DNA from: an uncultured bacterium
GTDB lineage: Bacteria > Planctomycetota > Phycisphaerae > Phycisphaerales > SM1A02
DNA: 64,000 bases
Reading direction: 5' to 3'
Assembly (NCBI GenBank): GCA_903919715.1
Contig: CAIXJC010000027.1
Coordinates: forward strand, 1-64,000
The notes beneath the pieces are model-generated. The model made no database searches. It was not told the origin of the DNA and saw only the letters and a program-made list of their open reading frames with translations. Both the position numbers and the translations under genes were made by a program. Of this stretch, positions 4,280 through 19,149 are shown one piece after another; position 1 is the first letter of the stretch, and each line of letters opens with the position of its first letter.

Positions 4280-6346
4280 TCAGTTTGGGCAGTATCCCCA
4301 GTTGGCCAGTAGCAAAGCGATATCCATCGCATCTGTGTCGCCATCGCCAGAAACATCACCGACTGAAGCCCCTGGGCCAGTTCCCCAGCTGGCAAGCACG
4401 ATGGTGAAGTCTGCTCCGTCAACTATCCCATCATTCGTGAGATCGCCTAGGCATGAGCACGCAGCGTTAAAGTCATTTCCTCCCAGGTTGGTCCATGGTC
4501 CTTGGAAGAGCGGATTCGATGCGGAGCAGAATCCGCTATTTGCTAAGGCGTAAGTGCCTGAATACGTGACGGCGAAAAGCGCCGTGTTGACATGGCAGTT
4601 GTAAAAATGGCAGCCGTCAATGAGTGTTTGGCCGTATCGCATGTTCATGACACTATCGCCTGTGAAACTTCTGAAGTCAGTGCGTCTGACGGTGAAAGGT
4701 GACCAACCAAAGAGGGCGGGGGTTTTCATTAGATCGAAAAGTGAATCTTCAATTGTCACAGTCGAATATGCGTTGTAGATATGGCCCCCAGTTTCTGTAG
4801 GTGCTCCCAGAAATGAAGACCGTTTGATGAATGCACTTCCTCCGCCCTCTTGCATGAGGATGTTGGCTTGCCCATTGAGACAGCCACGAAACGAGCAATA
4901 GTCGACGGTTGTTGCTCCACCGATACATCGAATTGCGCCACCGCCTCCATAGGTAGTGGAGGGGGTACTGCTCGCAACGCAATCAACAAAGTCACACGCA
5001 ATGAATGATGTTGCGCCTCCAGAGATCTGCGCGCCACCACCATGCCCGTTCGTGCAGTCTTCAATGATGCAGGAGTCAAAGGTCGGTGCAGAATTCACTG
5101 TTTCAATTCCACCGCCAATTTTCCCGCCCTTCGTGATTCTGAATCCAATCACCTTTGTGTTCGCGGATTCGTTCGAGGTTGCAACAAATGAGCGTGTTCC
5201 TTGTGGTGCTACGACGCTGGCGCCTCCGGGAAGGGCACTGCGAACAAGAATCGATTTTCCCCGAAGGTTAACGCTCTCAGGATAATTTCCTGGCGCTACT
5301 TGAACCGTATCTCCATTCGCCGCTGCATCAACAGCTGCTTGAATCGTCGCAAACTTCCCTGGGACGTGAAGAGTGGATGGTTGATCACTCATCGCAAGTT
5401 CCCACGTTTCGGGAATGTAAGTACGTCCGGATGGCGATGGACCCATTCCGCCTGGAAGAATGATCGTGTCTCGAACGCGGTCATATGCGATGTTCATATA
5501 TCCGCGAGCGGGACCTTGAAGGGCGCAGAGACTCCAGCTTGTGCCGTTCCAGACATAGGTCTGGGGATATTCGACTTCTCCACAGCATGTTGTTCCTCCG
5601 TGAAGAACAATCTGGCCACGATGGCTGTCAAAGGTCATTCCAAAGACATAACGAGCAGGGCCAGATGTGCCCGCCGCAGTCCAGGTAGATCCATTCCATT
5701 TCCATGTGTCATTCTTGTTCGTGTAGTAAAAGCCACCATGGAGCACTGTTTCATGGCGCAACTCGTCGTATGCCATTCGGTGTGCGTAACGCCGTCCGAT
5801 CGGCCCAGTTGCCCATCTCGCCCATGTATTGGCCGATGGATTCCACTCCAACGTGTCTTCAAGGAGTGAGCCGCCAGAACCTTGATATCCACCGTGCACA
5901 ACAAGTCGATTTCGGTCGCGGTCAAACGACATCGCAAAGTCGCCTCGCCCTGAGGCGTCAACTGGCCCAGCGGAAAGTTGCGACCACGCTTTTCCGTTCC
6001 ATTGCCAGAGGTCCTTTCGAACGCCTGCGTCGGAGTATCCACCGAACAGAAGGCATCGTTGGCCTACCGAGTCATACACCATTGCGCCTGCGCCACGCGT
6101 TGGTGGACCGCCAGTGGCGACAACGGACCAGACCGTTCCATTCCATATATATGTTTTCTGATCCCCACCAGAAAAGAGCACGGTCTGCGAACGAGCTTCG
6201 TCGTAACAAATTTCGTACGCCCCTGGTCCTGATCCAGTACCGAGGCTCCATTCAAAGCCGCACTGGGCATTTGCGGTTGAACTCACACTACTCACTGCAA
6301 TAACCGCACTGAAAAACGCAATGACACCTGTGGAGATCGTTCTCAT
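4280..6346 (-). CDS. Secreted kelch-propeller / beta-helix protein with dockerin-like C-terminus
   Basis: 688 aa. Signal peptide 1-27 (ends STANA before QCG). Residues ~45-320 contain six kelch-like motifs of the form YD-x-x-R-x5-LFGG (for example YDSVGQRCLLFGG, FDRDRNRLVVHGG and YDELRHETVLHGG), each with a W-x-W-N-G strand, consistent with a six-bladed propeller. Residues ~327-620 look like a right-handed parallel beta-helix of the pectate-lyase/NosD type, starting at FATIQAAVDAAANGDTVQV. The last ~57 residues form a dockerin-like tag with two loops (DLTNDGIVDGADF and DVSGDGDTDAMDI) and a WG after each. This tag is typical of Phycisphaerae secreted proteins and is probably an anchoring or sorting element. 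No catalytic function is evident; adhesin or structural surface role inferred. It has its own terminator. Confidence 0.85.
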   Translation of the reverse strand: MRTISTGVIAFFSAVIAVSSVSSTANAQCGFEWSLGTGSGPGAYEICYDEARSQTVLFSGGDQKTYIWNGTVWSVVATGGPPTRGAGAMVYDSVGQRCLLFGGYSDAGVRKDLWQWNGKAWSQLSAGPVDASGRGDFAMSFDRDRNRLVVHGGYQGSGGSLLEDTLEWNPSANTWARWATGPIGRRYAHRMAYDELRHETVLHGGFYYTNKNDTWKWNGSTWTAAGTSGPARYVFGMTFDSHRGQIVLHGGTTCCGEVEYPQTYVWNGTSWSLCALQGPARGYMNIAYDRVRDTIILPGGMGPSPSGRTYIPETWELAMSDQPSTLHVPGKFATIQAAVDAAANGDTVQVAPGNYPESVNLRGKSILVRSALPGGASVVAPQGTRSFVATSNESANTKVIGFRITKGGKIGGGIETVNSAPTFDSCIIEDCTNGHGGGAQISGGATSFIACDFVDCVASSTPSTTYGGGGAIRCIGGATTVDYCSFRGCLNGQANILMQEGGGSAFIKRSSFLGAPTETGGHIYNAYSTVTIEDSLFDLMKTPALFGWSPFTVRRTDFRSFTGDSVMNMRYGQTLIDGCHFYNCHVNTALFAVTYSGTYALANSGFCSASNPLFQGPWTNLGGNDFNAACSCLGDLTNDGIVDGADFTIVLASWGTGPGASVGDVSGDGDTDAMDIALLLANWGYCPN

Positions 6347-9445: not shown

Positions 9446-9468
9446 AGTCCGTACTGTATCGTTTGCAG

Positions 9469-10458
9469 ATGAACATCGCATGGTGGAAGAAGTGCCGGGT
9501 CGTTTTGCTGTTGGCAACGACAACAATATGCAGCTGCTCGAAAGATGATGGGGCGGCAAAAGTTGCGCCACCTATTTTGGTCGAGTCGGCGGCGCCCGCT
9601 GCGCCTGCCGCGCCAGTTTTAATTTCAACTCCAATTTCAACTCCAGCTGCGGCTCTGGCTCCAACTCTGACAGCGGCTCCATCTCCACTCGCATGGGCTG
9701 AAGTGATTGACTTACATCCTGATCCCACGATCGTCACGAATGCAGATTTGCTTGCGCGGATTACTGCAACGGGTTTGCCTTGGCGAGTTCGCGATAACAA
9801 AACGAAAATCGAGTTCTTGCTCGTTCCTCCTGGAACATTCATGATGGGATTGAGTCCAAGCGATGAAGAGGGGCAGAAATCCGAGAAGCCTGCGCATCAA
9901 GTGACAATCACGAAGGCTTTTTATCTCGGTCGCACAGAAGTCACGCAAGAACAGTGGGAGCGAATCGCGAATTCGAATCCGAGCGCAATTCTTGGTCCAT
10001 CGATACCAGTTCACCGAGTTCGCTTTCAAGATTTTGATGTACTCCTCGACAAGTTTGGTCTTCGATTGCCAACTGAAGCGGAGTGGGAATATGCATGCCG
10101 AGCAGGAGTGCGCGAGTCGCGTTATGGGGATCTCGATCGAATCGCTGCGTACGAAAAAAATGCAGCGCGCGGCCCACAAGTCGTCGGCCAGAGATTGCCG
10201 AACGCTCTTGGATTTCAAGACATGTTGGGCAATGTCATGGAGTGGTGTTCTGATTGGTATAGCGCGGACTATTACACGCAGTGTCAGGGCGGCGTCACGG
10301 ATCCAACTGGACCGCCGACTGGAACTGTTCGAGTTCAGCGTGGCGGATCGTGGGCGGGAATAAATAAATCATGTCGTGCGTCTTATCGCTTTGGGATTGC
10401 GCCTGATTATCGCGGCGAATTTTTCGGTGATGGAGTTCGATTAGCACGAACGCCGTAA
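9469..10458 (+). CDS. FGE/SUMF-family lipoprotein (formylglycine-generating-enzyme-like)
   Basis: 329 aa; a TTG two codons earlier is an alternative start. The N-terminus is a lipoprotein signal with a possible lipobox at TICSC. A Pro/Ala/Thr-rich linker follows (to ~residue 80), then a complete FGE-sulfatase fold: VPPGTFMMGLSPSDEEGQ, FYLGRTEVTQEQW, GLRLPTEAEWEYACRAG, LGNVMEWCSDWY and VQRGGSWAGINKSCRASYR. True formylglycine-generating enzymes bind copper with two cysteines in GGS-x-x-C-x4-C. Here the first is replaced by glycine and only the second remains, so oxidase activity is doubtful. No sulfatase gene is in the window. A divergent role as a surface or signalling lipoprotein is more likely, as for many planctomycete SUMF-domain proteins. 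Confidence 0.85.
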   Translation: MNIAWWKKCRVVLLLATTTICSCSKDDGAAKVAPPILVESAAPAAPAAPVLISTPISTPAAALAPTLTAAPSPLAWAEVIDLHPDPTIVTNADLLARITATGLPWRVRDNKTKIEFLLVPPGTFMMGLSPSDEEGQKSEKPAHQVTITKAFYLGRTEVTQEQWERIANSNPSAILGPSIPVHRVRFQDFDVLLDKFGLRLPTEAEWEYACRAGVRESRYGDLDRIAAYEKNAARGPQVVGQRLPNALGFQDMLGNVMEWCSDWYSADYYTQCQGGVTDPTGPPTGTVRVQRGGSWAGINKSCRASYRFGIAPDYRGEFFGDGVRLARTP

Positions 10459-10477
10459 AACTGAATGGAGTTTTACG
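10454..10477. terminator. Hairpin shared by two convergent genes, containing both stop codons
   Basis: CGTAAAACT-gaatgg-AGTTTTACG is a perfect 9-bp stem. The TAA of the FGE-like gene lies in the left arm and the TAA of the RCC1-like gene in the right arm. The A/T-rich arms could give a weak bidirectional terminator, though no separate long T-run follows. Confidence 0.5.
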
Positions 10478-12899
10478 GGCAAGGGCCCCAGCCCGCTAAG
10501 AGTGTGGCGAGGTCGTTTCCGTCGGTTATTCCGTCACCGTTGCAGTCGCCGACAGGCGTTCCCCATCCAGCAAGAATTGCAGTGAGATCAAGGCCGTCGC
10601 GAAAACCGTCGTTGTTCCAATCAGCGGTGCAAGAAATTGTTGGGGCACCCGCAATAACAATTGTGTGAAATCCACCCGCGGCTATTTGGCTAGCAGGACC
10701 GATATTGGACGGGACAGCGCACTGTTGTTGTTCGCAAGTGCCCCAACTGGAAAATTTCTCTTGTGTATTAATCGCGACCGTGTGTTCCTCGCCGGCAGCG
10801 ATGTCGTGGAAAAGCATTGGGCCGTTTGGAATTGCCCACGATCCGCCGATCGGCGATCCCCAAGATCGAATTGTGCCGTCGGATTTCAGCGCAACAGTGT
10901 GGTATGCGCCTGCTGCGATGCGAACGCATGATCCAACTTGCTGACAGTCGAGCGGCGTCGATGTTGGCGAGAGTTGCCCAAACAGATCATCCAGAATTCG
11001 CACGCTGAGTTTCGAGTAACCGAGGTCGGAAAGGTGAAACTGACTGCCGCTATTGCTGTACCACTGCCGTGTTGCCATCTCGTTGATCGATGTCAGTTTG
11101 GATAGATCAATGATGGTGAGGTTTGAAACTGTTTGGGGAAGGTCATTCGCATATGTTCGAAGCGCACCAAGCCCTCCGTCGATTTCAAAGATTGGGTGCG
11201 AGACCATTGCAACGAAAGTAATGTTGGCAGAGTTTTTTCCCAGCGCAGCCCACGCACTCTCCATTGCATTCTTGATACCGACGACGGCGCTCCCCCAAGA
11301 ATTTGGCGTGTTGAGATCCTGATTTACCCCGCCTTGGATGAGCACAATGATTCGTCCGCTTCCGCCTCCAGCAACTTGGCGGTCCGCAAGCTCCTTCAGG
11401 TATGTCATGCGAGACTCAAGCGGCATTCGTGTCACGTCTGCAGCGATTTGCGTCATCGTTGCACCACCGCGATATTCCAAGGGCTGCACTCCCCAACCAC
11501 GCCTTCGTTTGTAGACGCTCTGCAGGCCGAGCGCACAATTGCCTTGTATCCCGAACGCTTGTCCAAACCCAGTTCCGCAGCAGGTTGCATGCAGCGTCGA
11601 CATCGAGCGGTTTTCATCAGCGGGTAGCGTTAATTCATCAGCGACCCATCGGCGAGAAATACCAGCGACTGATCGCAGTGTTGGAGGGACGAGAACCTGC
11701 TGCGCGACATTCCGCCATCCTTGATAATAAGAACCGGGGCTGTTTGATTGCGGAAGTTCTGCGCGCAACATGCGATAGACAAGTTCACTCTTGATATCGA
11801 GTCCGCTGTTCGAATTGAGATAGACGCCCGAACCGAAATCCGCAAACCGATATTGTTGAAATGGGATCCATGCGAAGTCAAACGGTAACGCAGTTGGTTG
11901 CAAACCAATTTCATTTCCTGCGACACCGCTCGTCAATTGTGTGACCAATTCAGATGGCGCATTCGCGCGTCCGCTTTGATTGACAGCTGAGGTCGCTCCC
12001 GTGGTCGATCCATTTCCAGTGGGCATCGATACTTGCATCGTTGCGACACCGAAGGAAGCGCCGGGAGGGTTCACGGGAAGAAGTGGAGTCGCATATTGCG
12101 GGAATCCAAGTGTGCCAAGCGCTGTGGCAAGTCCATCAGTCCAACCGTGAATAACCGATGTCGATTCTCCAAATCCAGTATTGCTATCGCCGCAGAGAAG
12201 GAAGTCCACACTGTCGATTCCGTCTTGCGCTTCGCGCAGGAAACCAGTCGTTTTCTGTGCAGCGGTGACTGAACATTGGTCGCGCCCCCAACAGATCACG
12301 CTCCCCTGTGTGGTGAGTCCGACAGAGTGATAACCACCAGCTGCCACAGCGATGCACGATCCGACAGATGTTGGAATGGAAGTTTGGCCGAACTCGTTGC
12401 TTCCAAATGCGACAACTTCGCCGCTTGCTCGCAGGGCGAGTGAGTGCGCGGCACCACCTGAGATTTGCATGCACGGTCCAAGAGCAGGCGAGATTGTGCA
12501 CTGGCCGGAGTCGTTGCGGCCCCACGCCTTGACCGCGCCGTCCGATGCGATCGCGAGTGTGTGATACCAACCAGCAGCGATGAACGAAAATGGGAAACCG
12601 TTCGTTGGTGTCGTGCACTGTTGGTACTCATTGGATCCCCAACACTTGATGGAGCCATTGACTTCGAGTGCGACCGAGTGAAATTTTCCCGCGGCGACTT
12701 GAGTGCACGGCCCCAACGTTGGCGGGACGGAGCACTGACCTTCGGTCGTCCTTCCCCAGCACGCGACAACATCGTTTGATTGTGCCGAACAAGGAACGGC
12801 TCGTGCCGATGCGATGAAGACAACGCAAGATGTTCCCAGCGTTCGGACGATGCGAACGCAACGAGCTCTCCGTCGATTGATTTGATCGATCGATTTCAT
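10473..12899 (-). CDS. Secreted RCC1-like propeller interrupted by an SGNH-like domain, with dockerin-like tag
   Basis: 808 aa from the ATG at 12899. Signal peptide to about residue 40 (ends ARAVPCSAQ). Residues ~45-215 hold four RCC1-type blades, marked by AAGKFHSVAL, AAGWYHTLAI, SGGAAHSLAL and AAGGYHSVGL with WG strands between. Residues ~230-640 form a different domain of SGNH/GDSL character: FLLCGDSNTGFG (block I, nucleophile Ser ~239), IVLIQGGVNQDLN (block III) and SQFHLSDLGYSKLS (block V His ~622). The usual Asp three residues before that His is Ser. Three more RCC1 blades follow (AAGAYHTVAL, AAGEEHTVAI, AAGGFHTIVI), so the propeller count is 4+3=7. The last ~52 residues are a dockerin-like tag with two D-N-x-D-G loops. 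Function is unknown; a surface carbohydrate esterase is one possibility. Confidence 0.85.
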   Translation of the reverse strand: MKSIDQINRRRARCVRIVRTLGTSCVVFIASARAVPCSAQSNDVVACWGRTTEGQCSVPPTLGPCTQVAAGKFHSVALEVNGSIKCWGSNEYQQCTTPTNGFPFSFIAAGWYHTLAIASDGAVKAWGRNDSGQCTISPALGPCMQISGGAAHSLALRASGEVVAFGSNEFGQTSIPTSVGSCIAVAAGGYHSVGLTTQGSVICWGRDQCSVTAAQKTTGFLREAQDGIDSVDFLLCGDSNTGFGESTSVIHGWTDGLATALGTLGFPQYATPLLPVNPPGASFGVATMQVSMPTGNGSTTGATSAVNQSGRANAPSELVTQLTSGVAGNEIGLQPTALPFDFAWIPFQQYRFADFGSGVYLNSNSGLDIKSELVYRMLRAELPQSNSPGSYYQGWRNVAQQVLVPPTLRSVAGISRRWVADELTLPADENRSMSTLHATCCGTGFGQAFGIQGNCALGLQSVYKRRRGWGVQPLEYRGGATMTQIAADVTRMPLESRMTYLKELADRQVAGGGSGRIIVLIQGGVNQDLNTPNSWGSAVVGIKNAMESAWAALGKNSANITFVAMVSHPIFEIDGGLGALRTYANDLPQTVSNLTIIDLSKLTSINEMATRQWYSNSGSQFHLSDLGYSKLSVRILDDLFGQLSPTSTPLDCQQVGSCVRIAAGAYHTVALKSDGTIRSWGSPIGGSWAIPNGPMLFHDIAAGEEHTVAINTQEKFSSWGTCEQQQCAVPSNIGPASQIAAGGFHTIVIAGAPTISCTADWNNDGFRDGLDLTAILAGWGTPVGDCNGDGITDGNDLATLLAGWGPCP

Positions 12900-12946
12900 A
12901 CGCTGAAGAGAGTATTCACTGCTCGAGCGCGAATGCAAATTTCAGC

Positions 12947-12975
12947 AGAAAAACGGCAATAGAAAAGTGCCGTTT
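12947..12975 (-). terminator. Rho-independent terminator of the rhamnose/fucose operon
   Basis: On the reverse strand AAACGGCA and TGCCGTTT form an 8-bp stem with a 9-base loop, ending in a short T-run. It lies ~40 bases past the stop of the aldolase/dehydrogenase gene and just before the RCC1-like gene. Confidence 0.75.
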
Positions 12976-13015
12976 CATACAGGGAGTGCGTTTGAACGCA
13001 GCCGATTGGGGGCAA

Positions 13016-15220
13016 TTAGCGTAGGAATGCTTCGTGCAAACCGCCGTCGACGGGAATGATCTGCCCCGTCGTCTTGCTGAGGCGATTGGATACAAGAAGA
13101 AAGTATGCCTCCGCTTGATCAGCTGGCGTGATTGGCGCCTTGGTCAGCGTGCGCTGCGCATAGAAGTTGGAAAGTTTTTTGGTGAGCGAATCATCGGACT
13201 CGCTCGTGTCATAGGCGATCGAGTATTTCGCAAGTGATGCGATCACGCGGTCGCGAGGAAACATAGAAGAACCTTGCACGACGGTTGCAGGCGCAACAGC
13301 GTTGACTCTCACGAGCGGTGCAAGTTCCATCGCCAACTCTCGCACAAGGTGATTCGCCGCAGCCTTCGACGTGTCGTATGCAAGGGATCCCTTCTTTGCG
13401 ACAAGCGCATTTGCGCTCGTCGTCAGAACAAGATTGCCAGCAAGCCCTTGGTCTTTCCATGTGCTCGCCGCTTCATCTGCAACGAGATAGCTGCCTGTGA
13501 CATTCAGCGCAAAGGTGAACGCCCACTTGTCGTCTGGAATATGCCCTGTTGTATCGGGAGGAACAAAGACTCCTGCCGTGATGCAGATTGAATCAAATCC
13601 GCCATATGCGAGCGCAACTTGATCGAGCATGATCCGAATCGACGCACGATCGGTGATGTTGGCCGCGAGCCCGATTGCGGGACCGCACCCCGAGAGACCC
13701 GAACCAGCCACGCCGATACCAAGCCCATACTTGTCGGTGATTTCCTTCGCAGTCGCCTTTGCAGCTGCTTCATTCACATCGACGCAAACGATGTGCGCGC
13801 CTTCCTTGACCAAGCGATGCGCTGTTTCTTTCCCGATGCCAGAGCCTGCGCCGATGACGATGATGATTTGGCGGGCGAGTTCTTTTTCAGCTGGCATCCG
13901 CTGCAACTTTGCCTCTTCAAGCAGCCAATATTCGATGTCGAATGCTTCTTGCTGTGGGAGCGAGACATATTGGTCGATCGCTTCGGCGCCGCGCATGACT
14001 TCAACTGCGCAGTTATAGAATTCTGCTGTCACGCGTGATTCGGATTTGTCTTTGCCCCATGCAATCATTCCTAAGCCTGGAATAAGCACGACCGTCGGAT
14101 TTGGATCGCGCATCGCTGGAGAGTTTGGGCGCTTGCAGGCGTTGTAATACGCAGCATAATCCGTGCGGTATTTCTGGAGCGCTGCAGAAAGTTTCTTCCG
14201 CAGCATCGCACTGTCTTCGCTTTGCGGATCCCATGCGACATACATCGGCTTGATCTTCGTTCGCAGAAAGTGATCTGGACAAGATGTGCCGAGTTCTGCG
14301 AGACGATGCGAATCATGCGAGTTGATGAATCGCAGTATTGCGTGGTCGTCCTGAATCGTCGCCACGAAACGCTTGTTCTTGGAAATGTGCCCACGAAGCC
14401 ACGGCAAAATCGCAGCAAATGTGGATCGACGTTGCAGTTCGTCAAGGCTCTTGTGTTTCGCTCCGCCAAATGCCTTTGTATCGCCCCCCTTGGACTGATA
14501 CTTCGATTCGATAAAGAGTGATGCTGTTTCGATCATCGAGAGCGTTCGCTCATAACAAACCTTGTCGTCATCGTCCCACGAAATAAATCCGTGTTGCCCC
14601 ATCATGATCGCTTTCATGTGTGGCTGCTGCTTCGCAATTTCTTGCATTGCAAGTCCAAGTTCAAATCCAGGACGCATCCAAGGCATATACGCCATCGCTT
14701 CAGATCCGGCGGCGCCAAATATTTCCTTCGTCAGCGCCTGGCAATTCTTGGATGCCGCGATCGCAATGATCGCATTGGGATGCATGTGATCAACGTGTTT
14801 TCCTGGAAGAAAACTATGCAGGGGAGTATCGATCGACGTGGCGCGCGGATTGAGATTGAAGGTCGTGTGGTTGTACATCGCAACCATCTCATCTTCAGCG
14901 GGAGACTTCAGCCCTTTGTCGGCGCGTGCCGCATAGATGCGCTGAAGGCCGACGACTTTTTCTTGATAGAGGGACGCAAAGTTTTCGCGTGTGCTTGTTC
15001 GAAGATCGCCGCCAGAACCCTTGACCCAAAGAACTGCGGCATTCTCGCCAGTCAGAGGATCTTTCTGCGAAATCTTCGATGACGTATTTCCGCCACCAGT
15101 ATTAGTGATTCGCTGATCGGCGCCTAATTTATTCGATCGATACACGAGCCGTTCGGCTGCATCGAGTGCCGCGGCCTCCGCGTCGTTCCAGAGATGATGT
15201 ACGTGTTTGAATGAAGTCAT
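13016..15220 (-). CDS. Bifunctional rhamnulose-1-phosphate aldolase / lactaldehyde dehydrogenase (short-chain dehydrogenase)
   Basis: 734 aa. The N-terminal class II aldolase half (~1-430) has ITNTGGGNTSSKI, the zinc-binding HVDHMHPNA motif and MMGQHGFISWDDD. The C-terminal half (~455-734) is a classical SDR with the nucleotide motif IGAGSGIGKETA and catalytic YDTSKAA. This fusion splits L-rhamnulose (or fuculose) 1-phosphate into dihydroxyacetone phosphate and L-lactaldehyde and then oxidises the aldehyde. The chosen ATG at 15220 overlaps the kinase stop by 4 bases (ATGA) and has AAGAAGAG upstream; a longer reading would run into the kinase gene. It is the last gene of the operon and is followed by a terminator. 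Confidence 0.92.
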   Translation of the reverse strand: MTSFKHVHHLWNDAEAAALDAAERLVYRSNKLGADQRITNTGGGNTSSKISQKDPLTGENAAVLWVKGSGGDLRTSTRENFASLYQEKVVGLQRIYAARADKGLKSPAEDEMVAMYNHTTFNLNPRATSIDTPLHSFLPGKHVDHMHPNAIIAIAASKNCQALTKEIFGAAGSEAMAYMPWMRPGFELGLAMQEIAKQQPHMKAIMMGQHGFISWDDDDKVCYERTLSMIETASLFIESKYQSKGGDTKAFGGAKHKSLDELQRRSTFAAILPWLRGHISKNKRFVATIQDDHAILRFINSHDSHRLAELGTSCPDHFLRTKIKPMYVAWDPQSEDSAMLRKKLSAALQKYRTDYAAYYNACKRPNSPAMRDPNPTVVLIPGLGMIAWGKDKSESRVTAEFYNCAVEVMRGAEAIDQYVSLPQQEAFDIEYWLLEEAKLQRMPAEKELARQIIIVIGAGSGIGKETAHRLVKEGAHIVCVDVNEAAAKATAKEITDKYGLGIGVAGSGLSGCGPAIGLAANITDRASIRIMLDQVALAYGGFDSICITAGVFVPPDTTGHIPDDKWAFTFALNVTGSYLVADEAASTWKDQGLAGNLVLTTSANALVAKKGSLAYDTSKAAANHLVRELAMELAPLVRVNAVAPATVVQGSSMFPRDRVIASLAKYSIAYDTSESDDSLTKKLSNFYAQRTLTKAPITPADQAEAYFLLVSNRLSKTTGQIIPVDGGLHEAFLR

Positions 15221-16737
15221 ATTTTTGCTCTTCTTGCGCGCCGAATAGTAGTGGACGATGCCGCGGCAACGAGTGGAAGATCTTGGAAGCGATCGAGTGC
15301 CTCGCGCCACGATCCAACGCTCTTTGTGCTGGTGCGAGGCTTGTACAACTTGAGTTGGAACGATCGACGCATCACACTGCGGATCGCGGCGATCCCTGAG
15401 AGTTCTCCCATCGCAGCGGCTTGAACAAGAATGTTGCCCGCGGCCGTTGCCTCGACTGGCCCAACGATGACCGTCCGATCAAGCGCGTCAGCAGTCATCT
15501 GATTCAGGAGCGCATTTTGGCAACCGCCGCCAACGACGTGCAGCGTCGAAATGCTCCGCCCCGTCAACTTCTCGAGTCCGTCGAGTTCAGTGCGATAGAG
15601 CAATGCAAGTGACTCGAAGATGCAGCGCGCAATGGCGCCGCGTGTTCGTGGAACGGGTTGATTCGTTTCGCGGCAGTACAACTGAACTTTGCTCGTCATA
15701 CGCCCCGTCTTTGCAAAGCGGATATCTCCTGGATGAATCAGCGAGCGAAGCGGCGTTGCAGAACGGGCGAGTTTCACGATGCGTGCGTAATCACAATCCG
15801 CCTTCGGCCACTCTTTGCGACATTCCTGCAAGATCCAAAGTCCCACGAGGCATTTCAGTAGACGCGTGGTTCCTGCAAATCCAGCCTCGTTCGTGAAATT
15901 CGCTTCGCGCACCTTTTCGTTGACGAGCGGCTTGGGCAGTTCAACTCCCAAGAGTGACCAGGTGCCAGACGAAAGGTATGCCCAGTTTTTCCCAGTCGCT
16001 GGAATCGCTGCAACAGCGGCGGCAGTGTCGTGCGAGCACGTGGCGACAACTTTCGTTCCAACGAGTCCAGTATTGCTGGCGACCTGAGGAAGCATTTCGC
16101 CAACGACAGTTCCTGGTTCGATCGTCTTTGGAAAAATATGCTTTGGAATTCCCAACTTCTTCAGAAGCGGCCACGCCCAAGTTCGCTTTCGCGTGTCCCA
16201 ACACTGCGACGTCGAAGCGAGCGTCGTCTCAGCTTTGGATTGGCCCGTCATCATCCAATTGATGTAATCAGCGATCAGTAAGATGCGGTCGGCCTTGCGC
16301 AGGAGTTCGGGCCGTTGCTGTACATCGTCGTAGAGTTGATAGAGCGTATTGATCGGTCCGAAGCCGATTCCAGTGGCCGCATAAATTTCTTCGCGCGAGA
16401 TTTTCTTGAGGACTTTGGTAAACGCAGCGAATGTTCGCTCGTCGCGATATGTATATGGCAGCGCAAGCAGTGGCTGATTCCCTTTCAAGAGAACATAATC
16501 GACTCCCCACGAATCGCAGGCGACTGCTCGAACATCACCGACATTCGAAGCAGCGTTCAGTCCAATTTGGATTTCTGCCCAGAGTCGCACCACGTCCCAT
16601 CGCAGTGTCCCGCGAAGGCGAATGGGTTCGTTGGTGAATCGATGCAATTCGCGCATGCGCAGACGACCGCTTTGCAATGCGCCGAGGATGATGCGCCCTG
16701 ATTCCGCTCCAAGGTCAATGGCGATATAGCGCGACAT
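15217..16737 (-). CDS. rhaB: Rhamnulokinase (FGGY family)
   Basis: 506 aa, normal FGGY-kinase size. The N-terminal phosphate-binding motif is IAIDLGAESGRI; the E-S-G form is typical of rhamnulokinase. ACDSWGVDYVLL holds the family Asp, LSSGTWSLLGVE is the second ATP loop, and VVGGGCQNALLNQMTADAL is the adenosine motif of RhaB. It phosphorylates L-rhamnulose in the cytoplasm using ATP. It starts 28 bases after the class II aldolase gene and overlaps the aldolase/dehydrogenase gene by 4 bases. The C-terminal ~25 residues are basic and extend beyond the conserved fold. L-fuculokinase activity cannot be excluded, as the operon contains a fucose-isomerase-like gene. Confidence 0.9.
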   Translation of the reverse strand: MSRYIAIDLGAESGRIILGALQSGRLRMRELHRFTNEPIRLRGTLRWDVVRLWAEIQIGLNAASNVGDVRAVACDSWGVDYVLLKGNQPLLALPYTYRDERTFAAFTKVLKKISREEIYAATGIGFGPINTLYQLYDDVQQRPELLRKADRILLIADYINWMMTGQSKAETTLASTSQCWDTRKRTWAWPLLKKLGIPKHIFPKTIEPGTVVGEMLPQVASNTGLVGTKVVATCSHDTAAAVAAIPATGKNWAYLSSGTWSLLGVELPKPLVNEKVREANFTNEAGFAGTTRLLKCLVGLWILQECRKEWPKADCDYARIVKLARSATPLRSLIHPGDIRFAKTGRMTSKVQLYCRETNQPVPRTRGAIARCIFESLALLYRTELDGLEKLTGRSISTLHVVGGGCQNALLNQMTADALDRTVIVGPVEATAAGNILVQAAAMGELSGIAAIRSVMRRSFQLKLYKPRTSTKSVGSWREALDRFQDLPLVAAASSTTIRRARRAKI

Positions 16738-16765
16738 GATTTCTCCGTGGCTTTCTGAGTGAGGC

Positions 16766-17527
16766 TTAAAGTTTCAGGACGCTCTGTCGATAATGCTCAT
16801 CGGGTCGGCCAGCAATTCGCTCAACTTGTTTCATTGTGAGAAAGTTTGGGCCGCCGAGATTCGCCGCTCCCACAAAGATCTGCGCCGACTTTTCGACCAT
16901 CAAGAGTGAGGCAAGGACTCCTTGTGGCGAAGAGCCGACCGCAATCACTCCATGATTCTCAAGCAGGATGATTCGCGGCTCGCGCTTGGTGCGTGCTACG
17001 AATTTCAATGTCTTCGTCCGAATCGCCTGCGCAAGGGCAAGGCCAGGATCCGTATATGGAACGAATACAGATTCGCATCCGCAGCAGACAACTTCGTCTG
17101 GGAAAATTCGTTTGCGCGCGAATTCCTTCGCGCGCGGCGAGCAGAGAATCTGATTGACAGCGATTGCGTGCACATGCCCAACGCACTGGACGCCTGGAAG
17201 ACCAAGCAGCCACGCGTGAAAGAGCGATTCAACGGAAGGTTTTTTCGCGTCGGCGCTCACGCGCGCATCGAAGAGCGACTGATCGATCTGCGCATCCGTC
17301 AATCCTTTGCTTTCGATCATGTGAAGCAATCTGTCGAAGCGGCACTCGACGATTCCGGACTCATCAAGAGTTGCGAGATTGGACCCCGAAGCCTTGACGG
17401 CGAATGTTTCATCAGTCAGCCGTACAGAAACATTTCCCTCTCCCAAGATTGACATGCGCAAATCGTCTTTGCCAAGTTTGTGAGCAAGTTCGAGAAGTCC
17501 GGCGATGGGATTTACGCGCTTCGTCAT
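16766..17527 (-). CDS. Class II aldolase/adducin family protein (sugar-phosphate aldolase)
   Basis: 253 aa from the ATG at 17527, 2 bases after the isomerase stop. Class II aldolase features are present: GEGNVSVRL, KASGSNLATL, the catalytic Glu in SVESLFHAW, zinc-binding HVH in CVGHVHAIAVNQ, and a third zinc His in LLENHGVIAVG. Known relatives include L-fuculose-1-phosphate aldolase. It is unusual that the same operon also contains an aldolase fused to a dehydrogenase. The two may serve different sugars (fucose versus rhamnose), or this one may act on another phosphoketose. All metal ligands are present, so it is probably active. Confidence 0.88.
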   Translation of the reverse strand: MTKRVNPIAGLLELAHKLGKDDLRMSILGEGNVSVRLTDETFAVKASGSNLATLDESGIVECRFDRLLHMIESKGLTDAQIDQSLFDARVSADAKKPSVESLFHAWLLGLPGVQCVGHVHAIAVNQILCSPRAKEFARKRIFPDEVVCCGCESVFVPYTDPGLALAQAIRTKTLKFVARTKREPRIILLENHGVIAVGSSPQGVLASLLMVEKSAQIFVGAANLGGPNFLTMKQVERIAGRPDEHYRQSVLKL

Positions 17528-17529
17528 TG

Positions 17530-19149
17530 TCAGAGTGTCCCACAGATGAAGACTTCCATCCCGAGTGCGCGCATCGCCGCCGCCTTGATCGCAAGACCCT
17601 TTCGAGCATCGGCCTTGCTTGGTGCATAAACCACTTGAATGTGATTTGCTTTGTGTCGGGCCATCATTTGATCGCGGTCGATTCCCGGAAGCACGACATG
17701 CATGATGGGCCATGGCGGCGTCGTCAATTTCCACCGTTCTTCACTCTCGGCGCCTGGAAGTTCGACGACTTCGCCGATGCCAGTGTCGAATTTCAGACGT
17801 GCGTCTTCTATATATATGCGGGACCAGACGATCCAGCCCGGTTTCGAGATCCCTTTGACCGTGCCGCCTCCAAGGCGAAAGTACATCGGAGGTTGTCTCT
17901 CGCTCGATGTGCCGCGATACCCGCCGATGAAATGGGCTGGCGGTGCGGCGCCAGAGATGAGGAATACCCAGACATACGCATCGAGCATTCGGCTGCCGGA
18001 TTTTCCGCAGTAGTGGCGACCCCAGCGAAGATCATGCAGCGTGTTCTCTGGTTCCCAGCCGAGTTGCTTCCACAGGTCGTACGTCACCAAACCGTCGAGT
18101 CCAGCACACTCATCAACTTCGTTGAAGTGCGGCAAGGCTTCGCCAGCGAAAAGTTCCTTGCGCGAATTCGCGTGATAGACCGGCGGCCGATCACGATTAT
18201 TCAGCAGACCTTCAGCAAGATCTGATGCAGGCGCCAGATCCTTCAGGCCTTGTTGATATTGAATGCCGATCGTCGAACATCCAAAGTCGTCCGCAATTCG
18301 TACGGCGGCGATATACATCTTCAGCTGATCGATCGTCTGCTGCTTCGTCAGTTCTGTTTTCGTGTTCTTGCCCCAATTGAATTTCATTCCTCGGCGGAGC
18401 AACCAACGAAGCGCGTTATTCGCCTCGGCGGTCGAGACTTCCAGCATGGCGGCATACAGCGAAGATTGACTGAGTCTCTCTTTGAAAACGCCCGTTGACT
18501 GCAGCAGTTCGTCAGGAATAATCGCATTATGCATTCCCATGCACCCCTCATCGAATACACCCATGATCGCCTTGCGGCTGCGCAGGTCCGCCGCATATTT
18601 TTCGCCGATGCGAGTCGCAGATGGCGGGAGTTTTGCACTGGCATACGAACGAACATGTTTCGTTGCATGCACAAATTTTCCTGTGCGAAGCCACGCACGC
18701 AATCCACTGCGGAATGTTGCATCTTGAAAGTCTTCACTCCAGAGAGAGGAATATCGAACGCCCGCCTTCGTCATCGATCCGTTGAGATTCAGCATCCCGA
18801 CAAGTCCTGGCCATGTCCCAGACCAATTTGCGGCGGTCAAAATCGGACCTTCATGCGTTATCAATCCATGGAGAATGTGATGGGAGTATTGCCAGACCGC
18901 TTCGGCGATGATCAGTGGAGCACCGCGTGGGATCTTGCGGAATATTTCCATTCCATATTTCTGCGAATCAATAAAACTATGGCCTACTTCTTTACGAAAG
19001 CCGTGCGCACGTTTGACAGCCCACCCTTCCAACTTGATCGCTTTGGTCAGTGCCGCCTCCATCTCTCGTTGAGCGGCTTCGCACTTTTGATTCGCTGAGG
19101 TGCGCAGGTCACCGTTGGCAATGAGATAGATGATTGGCTTTGTGGTCAA
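17530..19149 (-). CDS. L-fucose isomerase-like protein
   Basis: 539 aa, slightly shorter than typical FucI. The sequence matches the L-fucose/L-arabinose isomerase superfamily: FDEGCMGMHNAIIPDELL in the first half, and ADDFGCSTIGIQYQQGL with HFNEVDECAGLDGLVTYDL in the second, where acidic residues would bind Mn2+. It should convert an aldodeoxysugar (L-fucose, L-rhamnose or D-arabinose type) to its ketose in the cytoplasm. It is the first gene of a four-gene operon (isomerase, class II aldolase, rhamnulokinase, aldolase/dehydrogenase). No canonical RhaA is present, so this protein probably supplies the isomerase step. The promoter must lie between 19150 and 19250, shared with the divergent polyketide operon. 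Confidence 0.82.
   Translation of the reverse strand: MTTKPIIYLIANGDLRTSANQKCEAAQREMEAALTKAIKLEGWAVKRAHGFRKEVGHSFIDSQKYGMEIFRKIPRGAPLIIAEAVWQYSHHILHGLITHEGPILTAANWSGTWPGLVGMLNLNGSMTKAGVRYSSLWSEDFQDATFRSGLRAWLRTGKFVHATKHVRSYASAKLPPSATRIGEKYAADLRSRKAIMGVFDEGCMGMHNAIIPDELLQSTGVFKERLSQSSLYAAMLEVSTAEANNALRWLLRRGMKFNWGKNTKTELTKQQTIDQLKMYIAAVRIADDFGCSTIGIQYQQGLKDLAPASDLAEGLLNNRDRPPVYHANSRKELFAGEALPHFNEVDECAGLDGLVTYDLWKQLGWEPENTLHDLRWGRHYCGKSGSRMLDAYVWVFLISGAAPPAHFIGGYRGTSSERQPPMYFRLGGGTVKGISKPGWIVWSRIYIEDARLKFDTGIGEVVELPGAESEERWKLTTPPWPIMHVVLPGIDRDQMMARHKANHIQVVYAPSKADARKGLAIKAAAMRALGMEVFICGTL

Follow-up and report, generated by a model that had tools for sequence, protein, structure and literature searches.

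A seven-bladed propeller apparently interrupted by an Ape1-like SGNH domain in an uncultured Phycisphaerales bacterium

Can an enzyme be built into a closed propeller, between two of its blades, and would it still be expected to work? This question is raised by one gene in contig CAIXJC010000027.1 (GenBank assembly GCA_903919715.1, 2.9 Mb in 85 contigs) of an uncultured planctomycete of the order Phycisphaerales, of which the first 64,000 nucleotides, here called the window, were analyzed. The gene encodes a protein (the window protein) with RCC1-like repeats on both sides of a segment carrying SGNH/GDSL motifs (Table 1), and an initial annotation had proposed a single RCC1-like propeller split 4+3 by an inserted SGNH domain. 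We consider it reasonably probable that this is a secreted, tagged protein in which a closed seven-bladed propeller of the BLIP-II/RCC1 type is interrupted by a complete Ape1-like SGNH esterase carrying within it a carbohydrate-module-like jelly roll, that it acts as an extracellular O-acetylesterase, and that the arrangement arose once. The repeats, the fold, the insertion point, the single branch in the tree and the conservation are borne out by sequence comparison and predicted models; as a prediction of function, a glycan O-acetylesterase outside the cell, held by a binding propeller, is likely.

The propeller and its inserted domain

Motifs of the A-A-G-x-x-H type were found at residues 68, 107, 146 and 185 and then at 661, 700 and 739 of the window protein. 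They are spaced by exactly 39 residues inside each half, and the step from 185 to 661 measures 476 residues, leaving about 437 extra residues between repeats 4 and 5. Pfam RCC1_2 matched seven stretches of the protein (E 2.6e-51). The motif positions, the seven stretches and the 39-residue period all agree with a propeller split 4+3 by an inserted domain, and as its repeats are not contiguous the protein is a variant of the RCC1/BLIP-II family. The reading frame is uninterrupted and extends upstream as far as a TTG at 12938.

AlphaFold2 was run on residues 40-808 with 23 aligned sequences (a model residue is the protein residue minus 39), and the best model reached a mean predicted local distance difference test score (pLDDT) of 90.0 and a predicted template modeling score (pTM) of 0.83. 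The model contains 21 blade strands, in seven sets of three. Before the insert, strands lie at model residues 4-10; 26-31, 35-40, 45-49; 65-70, 74-79, 84-88; 104-109, 113-118, 123-127; and 143-148, 152-157, 162-166, and after it at 619-624, 628-633, 638-642; 658-663, 667-672, 677-681; and 697-702, 706-712. Judging from this strand order, the N-terminal strand (model residues 4-10) would pair with the last two strands and close the ring. The prediction is thus of one closed seven-bladed propeller, and not two, from which the SGNH domain protrudes between repeats 4 and 5, as the initial annotation had anticipated.

We also compared the whole model with solved structures using Foldseek. The top match was BLIP-II (3qhy_B, E 3.1e-17, 170 columns, root mean square deviation 1.7, 37% identity), which outranked UVR8 and RCC1, and the sequence search was in agreement. 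The match spans 170 columns of 271 target residues, that is, a partial ring, as expected with an insert interrupting it. BLIP-II has seven blades of only three strands each (PMC6121496; the papers cited here by PMC number are drawn on through selected passages). Because the predicted blades are three-stranded and BLIP-II is the top match, the model places the ring with the short-blade BLIP-II type rather than with RCC1 proper; of the RCC1-like propeller first proposed, the seven blades are retained and the blade type is revised.

The insert modeled alone gave a pLDDT of 88.8 and a pTM of 0.91. Its top solved match was Ape1 of C. jejuni (8gkd_C, E 7.0e-14, 457 columns, TM-score 0.64 by target length) at an identity of 11%, followed by 8gld_A in second place, two CE2 esterases in third (2wao) and fifth (2waa) place, and, lower, 6hfz (called RiCE17) and the CE3 enzyme 5b5s. 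The insert's own model and this match to Ape1 bear out the alpha/beta SGNH fold that had been expected of it. The SGNH domain of Ape1 hosts an inserted carbohydrate module (PMC9487903), which occupies residues 104-221, downstream of the catalytic Ser80 (PMC6174289). The beta-rich part of the insert, placed from strand order, sits likewise between block I (237) and block III (523), and because of this the model suggests three nested levels, a jelly roll in an SGNH domain in a propeller. The window protein carries GDSNTG at residue 237, GGVNQD at 523 and FHLSD at 621, and the SGNH assignment draws on these motifs, on the predicted fold and on weak Pfam GDSL matches of relatives (at E <= 1 the models reach 4 and 2 of the 23 aligned sequences, 5.9e-5 being the best value, and the window protein is not among them). 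Searches with hidden Markov models, suggested earlier for both domains, recovered the RCC1 repeats of the window protein and, in Pfam, no SGNH domain. NCBIfam gave no family and PHROGs one match only (E 0.1), and the matches of an insert profile to PDB sequences were all weak, a GDSL lipase (E 0.097) ranking first.

From its N-terminal sequence, the window protein is probably secreted. Its C-terminal tag does resemble a dockerin, as first described; it scores 13.0 bits against a cut-off of 22.9 for the Pfam type I dockerin and so falls short of a family match. Such tags are common in the source genome, where 69 of 81 matches end in the tag (counted by hand, the window gene excluded). We rejected the tag as a pointer to a cellulosome, considering that it is under the dockerin cut-off and spread throughout the genome, and infer a sorting or anchoring tag instead.

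Table 1. Features of the propeller-SGNH gene in the window, and candidate loci for a second host fold
Feature	Position	Strand	Remark
Propeller-SGNH-propeller-tag protein gene	10473..12899	(-)	808 aa
N-terminal region with hydrophobic stretch, residues 1-40	12780..12899	(-)	Putative signal peptide, from sequence
Propeller part 1: closing N-terminal strand and repeats 1-4, residues 43-205	12285..12773	(-)	
Inserted Ape1-like SGNH module, residues about 209-645	10965..12275	(-)	
Block I, G237-D238-S239-N240	12180..12191	(-)	S239, putative nucleophile
Beta-rich jelly-roll region nested in SGNH domain, residues about 285-476	11472..12047	(-)	Limits approximate
Block III, G523-G524-V525-N526	11322..11333	(-)	N526, putative oxyanion-hole residue
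Block V, His622	11034..11036	(-)	No Asp at -3
Propeller part 2: repeats 5-7, residues 658-751	10647..10928	(-)	
Dockerin-like C-terminal tag, residues 757-808	10476..10631	(-)	
SGNH-split lectin-like candidates	L127:1749-3833 (G101); also L066, L069, L128:3825-5819, L071		

Active site and proposed function

We asked whether the inserted domain is likely to be active. The block I Ser, block III Asn and block V His of SGNH enzymes are all present (S239, N526 and H622), and Asp238, Ser239, Asn240, Asn526 and His622 are invariant in all 23 aligned sequences. G468 is kept in all rows and G479 in at least 90%; either may be the block II Gly. The residue at position -3 of the block V His is Ser in the window protein, as had been noticed at first, and Asp at this position is found in none of the seven copies fused to a propeller and in 7 of the 16 copies outside propellers. 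Two of the nine non-propeller copies without it have an Asp at -2 or -4, and its presence and absence require at least three changes on the tree.

The missing Asp is no proof of inactivity, because it is absent in nine of the 16 non-propeller copies and also in active CE2 esterases. In CE2 enzymes without the block V Asp the His is held by a main-chain carbonyl, CtCE2 and CjCE2B working with a Ser-His dyad (PMC2661963), and CE20 enzymes have a water-mediated contact in their triad (PMC12313940). The insert is also better conserved than the propeller in all six pairings with the window protein (for example 53.7 vs 44.7% and 51.0 vs 39.3% identity; 72.6 vs 70.7 for the nearest relative). Since the Ser, Asn and His are invariant, the insert is the better conserved part and Asp-less SGNH esterases are active, we favor an active esterase, by sequence and by analogy, over the "altered or inactive" enzyme of the initial annotation.

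The SGNH domain could also be a catalytically dead binding module, in a protein that is purely adhesive or structural on the surface. This pseudo-enzyme is unlikely, and it has two points on its side, the absence of the Asp from every fused copy and the existence of one CE2 enzyme whose active site is described as serving both catalysis and non-catalytic binding (PMC2661963). It is opposed by the invariant Ser, Asn and His, by the conservation of the insert, by the Asp-less copies outside propellers and by the dyad and water-mediated triad of active esterases. Less likely still is another SGNH activity, such as that of an acyltransferase, a lipase or a strictly peptidoglycan-specific esterase, in place of a general polysaccharide O-acetylesterase. 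The closest solved structure is indeed a peptidoglycan O-acetylesterase and SGNH domains include acetyltransferases (PMC6174289), but 11% identity to Ape1 is too low for a transfer of substrate, and the extracellular location expected for the protein fits an external glycan equally well.

The extracellular O-acetylesterase that we favor would be exported out of the cell, and its C-terminal tag would anchor or sort it, retaining the protein within the cell envelope or on its surface. The propeller would bind a partner, either protein or glycan, holding the active site at a fixed position on the partner's surface, and the esterase would remove O-acetyl (or similar) groups from nearby extracellular polysaccharide or peptidoglycan. 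Ser239 would be the nucleophile, Asn526 would belong to the oxyanion hole, and His622 would act as the base, either within a Ser-His dyad or assisted by a displaced acid. Attachment of the esterase to the ring at both ends would restrain it far more than a linker could, and the ring may possibly gate the enzyme.

Several observations on fold and activity count against such an esterase-in-propeller. The four remaining AlphaFold2 models had a mean pLDDT of 86.8 to 73.9, and the relative orientation of the domains is not fixed by the predicted models. No SGNH model of Pfam or NCBIfam matches the window protein, and the Pfam GDSL scores seen for its relatives are under the cut-off. The remaining matches listed for the insert are mostly jelly-roll proteins, carbohydrate modules and glycosidases among them, which align with its jelly-roll part alone. 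The absence of the block V Asp from all seven fused copies belongs here too.

Distribution and origin of the nested copies

A search with the insert matched 8 of 101 genomes: the window's own, 6 of the 18 other genomes of the genus, and G039. All six other genus genomes encode four repeats, the SGNH domain, three repeats and the tag, at 38-69% identity to the window protein. The seven repeat positions align in all seven fused rows, two of which have a changed fifth motif without the His, and the 39-residue period is evident by pattern in six rows and by alignment in the seventh. An insertion point common to homologues, which the initial annotation had left to be sought, was thus found in every fused copy, and the gene neighborhoods of these copies are partly different among genomes.

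These homologues bear on the possibility that the protein consists of two independent half-propellers, or is a bead-on-a-string fusion, rather than one interrupted propeller, which we regard as very improbable. The motif order alone (four repeats, a domain, three repeats) would be compatible with it, and the same genome encodes one protein with two tandem propellers as well as, as a control, one with seven uninterrupted repeats. Each propeller of the tandem paralogue, however, has seven repeats by eye (a stricter script pattern saw 3 and 5), 4+3 also makes seven, an N-terminal strand is left for closing the last blade in a confident model, and the split is identical in 7/7 fused copies. That an SGNH gene and an RCC1 gene were joined by assembly or binning is practically negligible, since, fragmented as the source assembly is, the architecture recurs with partly different neighbors in six other genomes at the identities given above and lies in one open frame.

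Profile searches matched 17 of 181 genomes of the family and 8 of 397 of the class, the window's own included in both, and 2 of 392 genomes of the phylum, namely the window's own and a weak fragment with a stop; in the class and phylum searches at most four candidates were scored per genome, which makes them less sensitive and their negatives soft. Outside the genus, no checked frame with the SGNH motif has more than two RCC1-like motifs. L078 has two loose matches, too few for a propeller, and the coding frames of L079, L080 and L082 (520, 496 and 519 aa) have none. Nine relatives in named genomes showed no convincing insert, with matches at chance level (E 0.16, on RCC1 repeats, and 0.70).

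To enter the alignment and tree, frames had to reach 300 aa and contain a GDSN-like motif, a rule that excluded L064, L067/L076, L077, L083, L085 and L088; second places of proteins already included were also left out. In the maximum-likelihood tree of 23 SGNH domains, the seven propeller-nested copies lie on one side of a branch with support 100/98. Because they form this one branch, a single origin of the insertion within the genus is probable from the sequences, and the branch speaks against an assembly error as well.

In G011 (L121), G016 (L122) and G002 (L123), the matches of the two genes that neighbor the window gene end 12 or 13 bases apart, stop codons included, and no trace of the gene was found between them. 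This is a clean presence/absence site of the whole gene, between an aldolase gene and an FGE-like gene (window 10458-13016), and, as read from these sequences, gain or loss affects the gene in its entirety. We rejected these three sites as places of an uninterrupted orthologue, as they lack the whole gene and so record its gain or loss, not that of the insert.

Two genomes of a related genus, G157 and G160, are the two g40 genomes matched in the profile search of the family, and both hold the SGNH domain as a separate gene. In G157, three propeller genes lie immediately upstream of a stand-alone SGNH gene with the tag (L126:5949-7532) and share its strand; the closest of them is at L126:7617-8873, and the whole stretch spans L126:5949-12319. 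In G160 the SGNH gene follows a propeller-plus-tag frame on the same strand (L072:3-2787). A stand-alone-type SGNH gene of this kind, neighboring propeller genes, was probably joined into a propeller gene; the direction from stand-alone to nested is suggested by the wider spread of the non-nested forms, and the adjacency is supporting, not decisive. Separately, RCC1-propeller frames are very abundant in G157 and occur in clusters; their repeats are closely similar and some frames exceed 1,600 aa, a picture that looks like recent repeat amplification.

Other data count against this reading of the gene and its origin. G157 has so many RCC1 genes, in clusters, that a single adjacency might arise by chance, and no propeller frame was seen in the stretches read around the stand-alone copies of G130:C43, G135:C117 and G039. 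The tree is rooted at its midpoint only, which touches the direction, and the gene seems dispensable, with 12 of 19 genus genomes, some of them incomplete, lacking a copy.

The same SGNH family was also found between two flanks in five other proteins, from G101, G102 and G103 (g17) and from G130:C4 and G135:C174 (g75), and these five copies form their own branch in the maximum-likelihood tree (100/100). Pfam found no lectin in the uncut proteins. With the flanks joined, G101 and G103 matched Pfam Lectin_C at E 0.0033 and 0.0024, below the cut-off, and the joined flanks of G103 matched a C-type lectin chain of the PDB at best E 2.2e-5, with the alignment running across the junction and non-lectin matches starting from E 0.3. 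The signal lies mostly in the N-flank, because this flank alone matches C-type-lectin-type chains (best E 0.00081), whereas the C-flank alone matches the later half of one such chain at E 0.68 only. An uncut relative of the N-flank is present in G101, where it stops at the contig end. From these sequences a lectin-like host is likely in g17 and possible in g75, whose flanks look more degenerate, the joined-flank tests having covered G101 and G103. On balance we lean toward a recurring "guest" domain, nested in separate clades at surface loops of two unrelated binding folds, the BLIP-II-like propeller and a C-type-lectin-like fold. The halves of the binder would clamp the enzyme, with a jelly roll in an esterase in a binder, and ligand binding could aim or gate it.

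Neighboring genes and known nested proteins

The gene adjoins that of an FGE-sulfatase-like protein (PF03781; window 9463-10458), whose family is expanded in the genus (18 of 19 genomes matched, with up to 28 match places in one); in the source genome, one RCC1 propeller frame reads through a beta-helix-like region (by eye) and a tag into an FGE-like region (L009; C78:128-577). Another modular protein, with Kelch repeats followed by a right-handed beta-helix region and a dockerin-like tag, is encoded at window 4280-6346. On the other side (window 13016-17734) lie an Aldolase_II plus short-chain dehydrogenase protein, an FGGY sugar kinase and a second Aldolase_II protein, genes that may serve rhamnose catabolism.

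Every domain of the window protein is of a known kind. BLIP-II (1jtd, 3qhy), UVR8 and RCC1 share its seven blades and RCC1-type repeat, and BLIP-II, described as a secreted binder, its three-stranded blades as well. Unlike them, it has an SGNH domain between repeats 4 and 5, and no esterase appears by title among the 50 Foldseek matches listed. Ape1 (8gkd/8gld of C. jejuni, and that of Neisseria) resembles the insert in its SGNH fold with a carbohydrate-module-like domain inside, but it is not within a propeller and their identity is low; in the gonococcal Ape, Asp366 stands three before His369 (PMC6174289), where the window protein has Ser. The CE2 esterases 2wao and 2waa also combine SGNH and jelly roll, with the Asp-less dyad of CtCE2 and CjCE2B, whereas their jelly roll is N-terminal and not inserted.

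Insertion of a whole domain between two blades of a seven-bladed propeller is already known from the integrin alpha-I domain (PMC3192720, PMC12422189). The integrin differs in its integrin-type repeats, in its vWA domain between blades 2 and 3 and in having no esterase, and no homology is claimed. A second parallel is the haemagglutinin-esterase-fusion glycoprotein, which we take to be that of influenza C virus. There, an SGNH esterase is inserted in another domain and itself hosts an inserted binding domain (PMC3779223); host domain and source are unrelated to ours, and the comparison is of architecture only. An SGNH domain nested in a propeller was not described in the literature searched on RCC1 or propellers with SGNH/GDSL, nor, in searches on SGNH/GDSL with C-type lectins or nested domains, was the lectin-like arrangement; subscription papers are mostly outside both sets. 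The matching passages of PMC3017826, PMC10017367 and PMC3779223 hold no propeller-nested SGNH architecture. Within this literature the nesting is new, in keeping with the first impression that no such protein had been described, while the parts, and through integrins the principle of insertion between blades, were known.

Fusions of enzymes with binders usually place one after the other. In conclusion, one enzyme family here appears to be nested in binders of two folds, while its relatives keep adjacent-gene and stand-alone forms, which may offer a natural record of the states before and after a domain is nested. The protein would be a counterpart in bacteria to the integrin I domain and could serve as a ready-made scaffold on which an enzyme is fixed to a propeller, and its active site may bear on the mechanism of Asp-less SGNH esterases.

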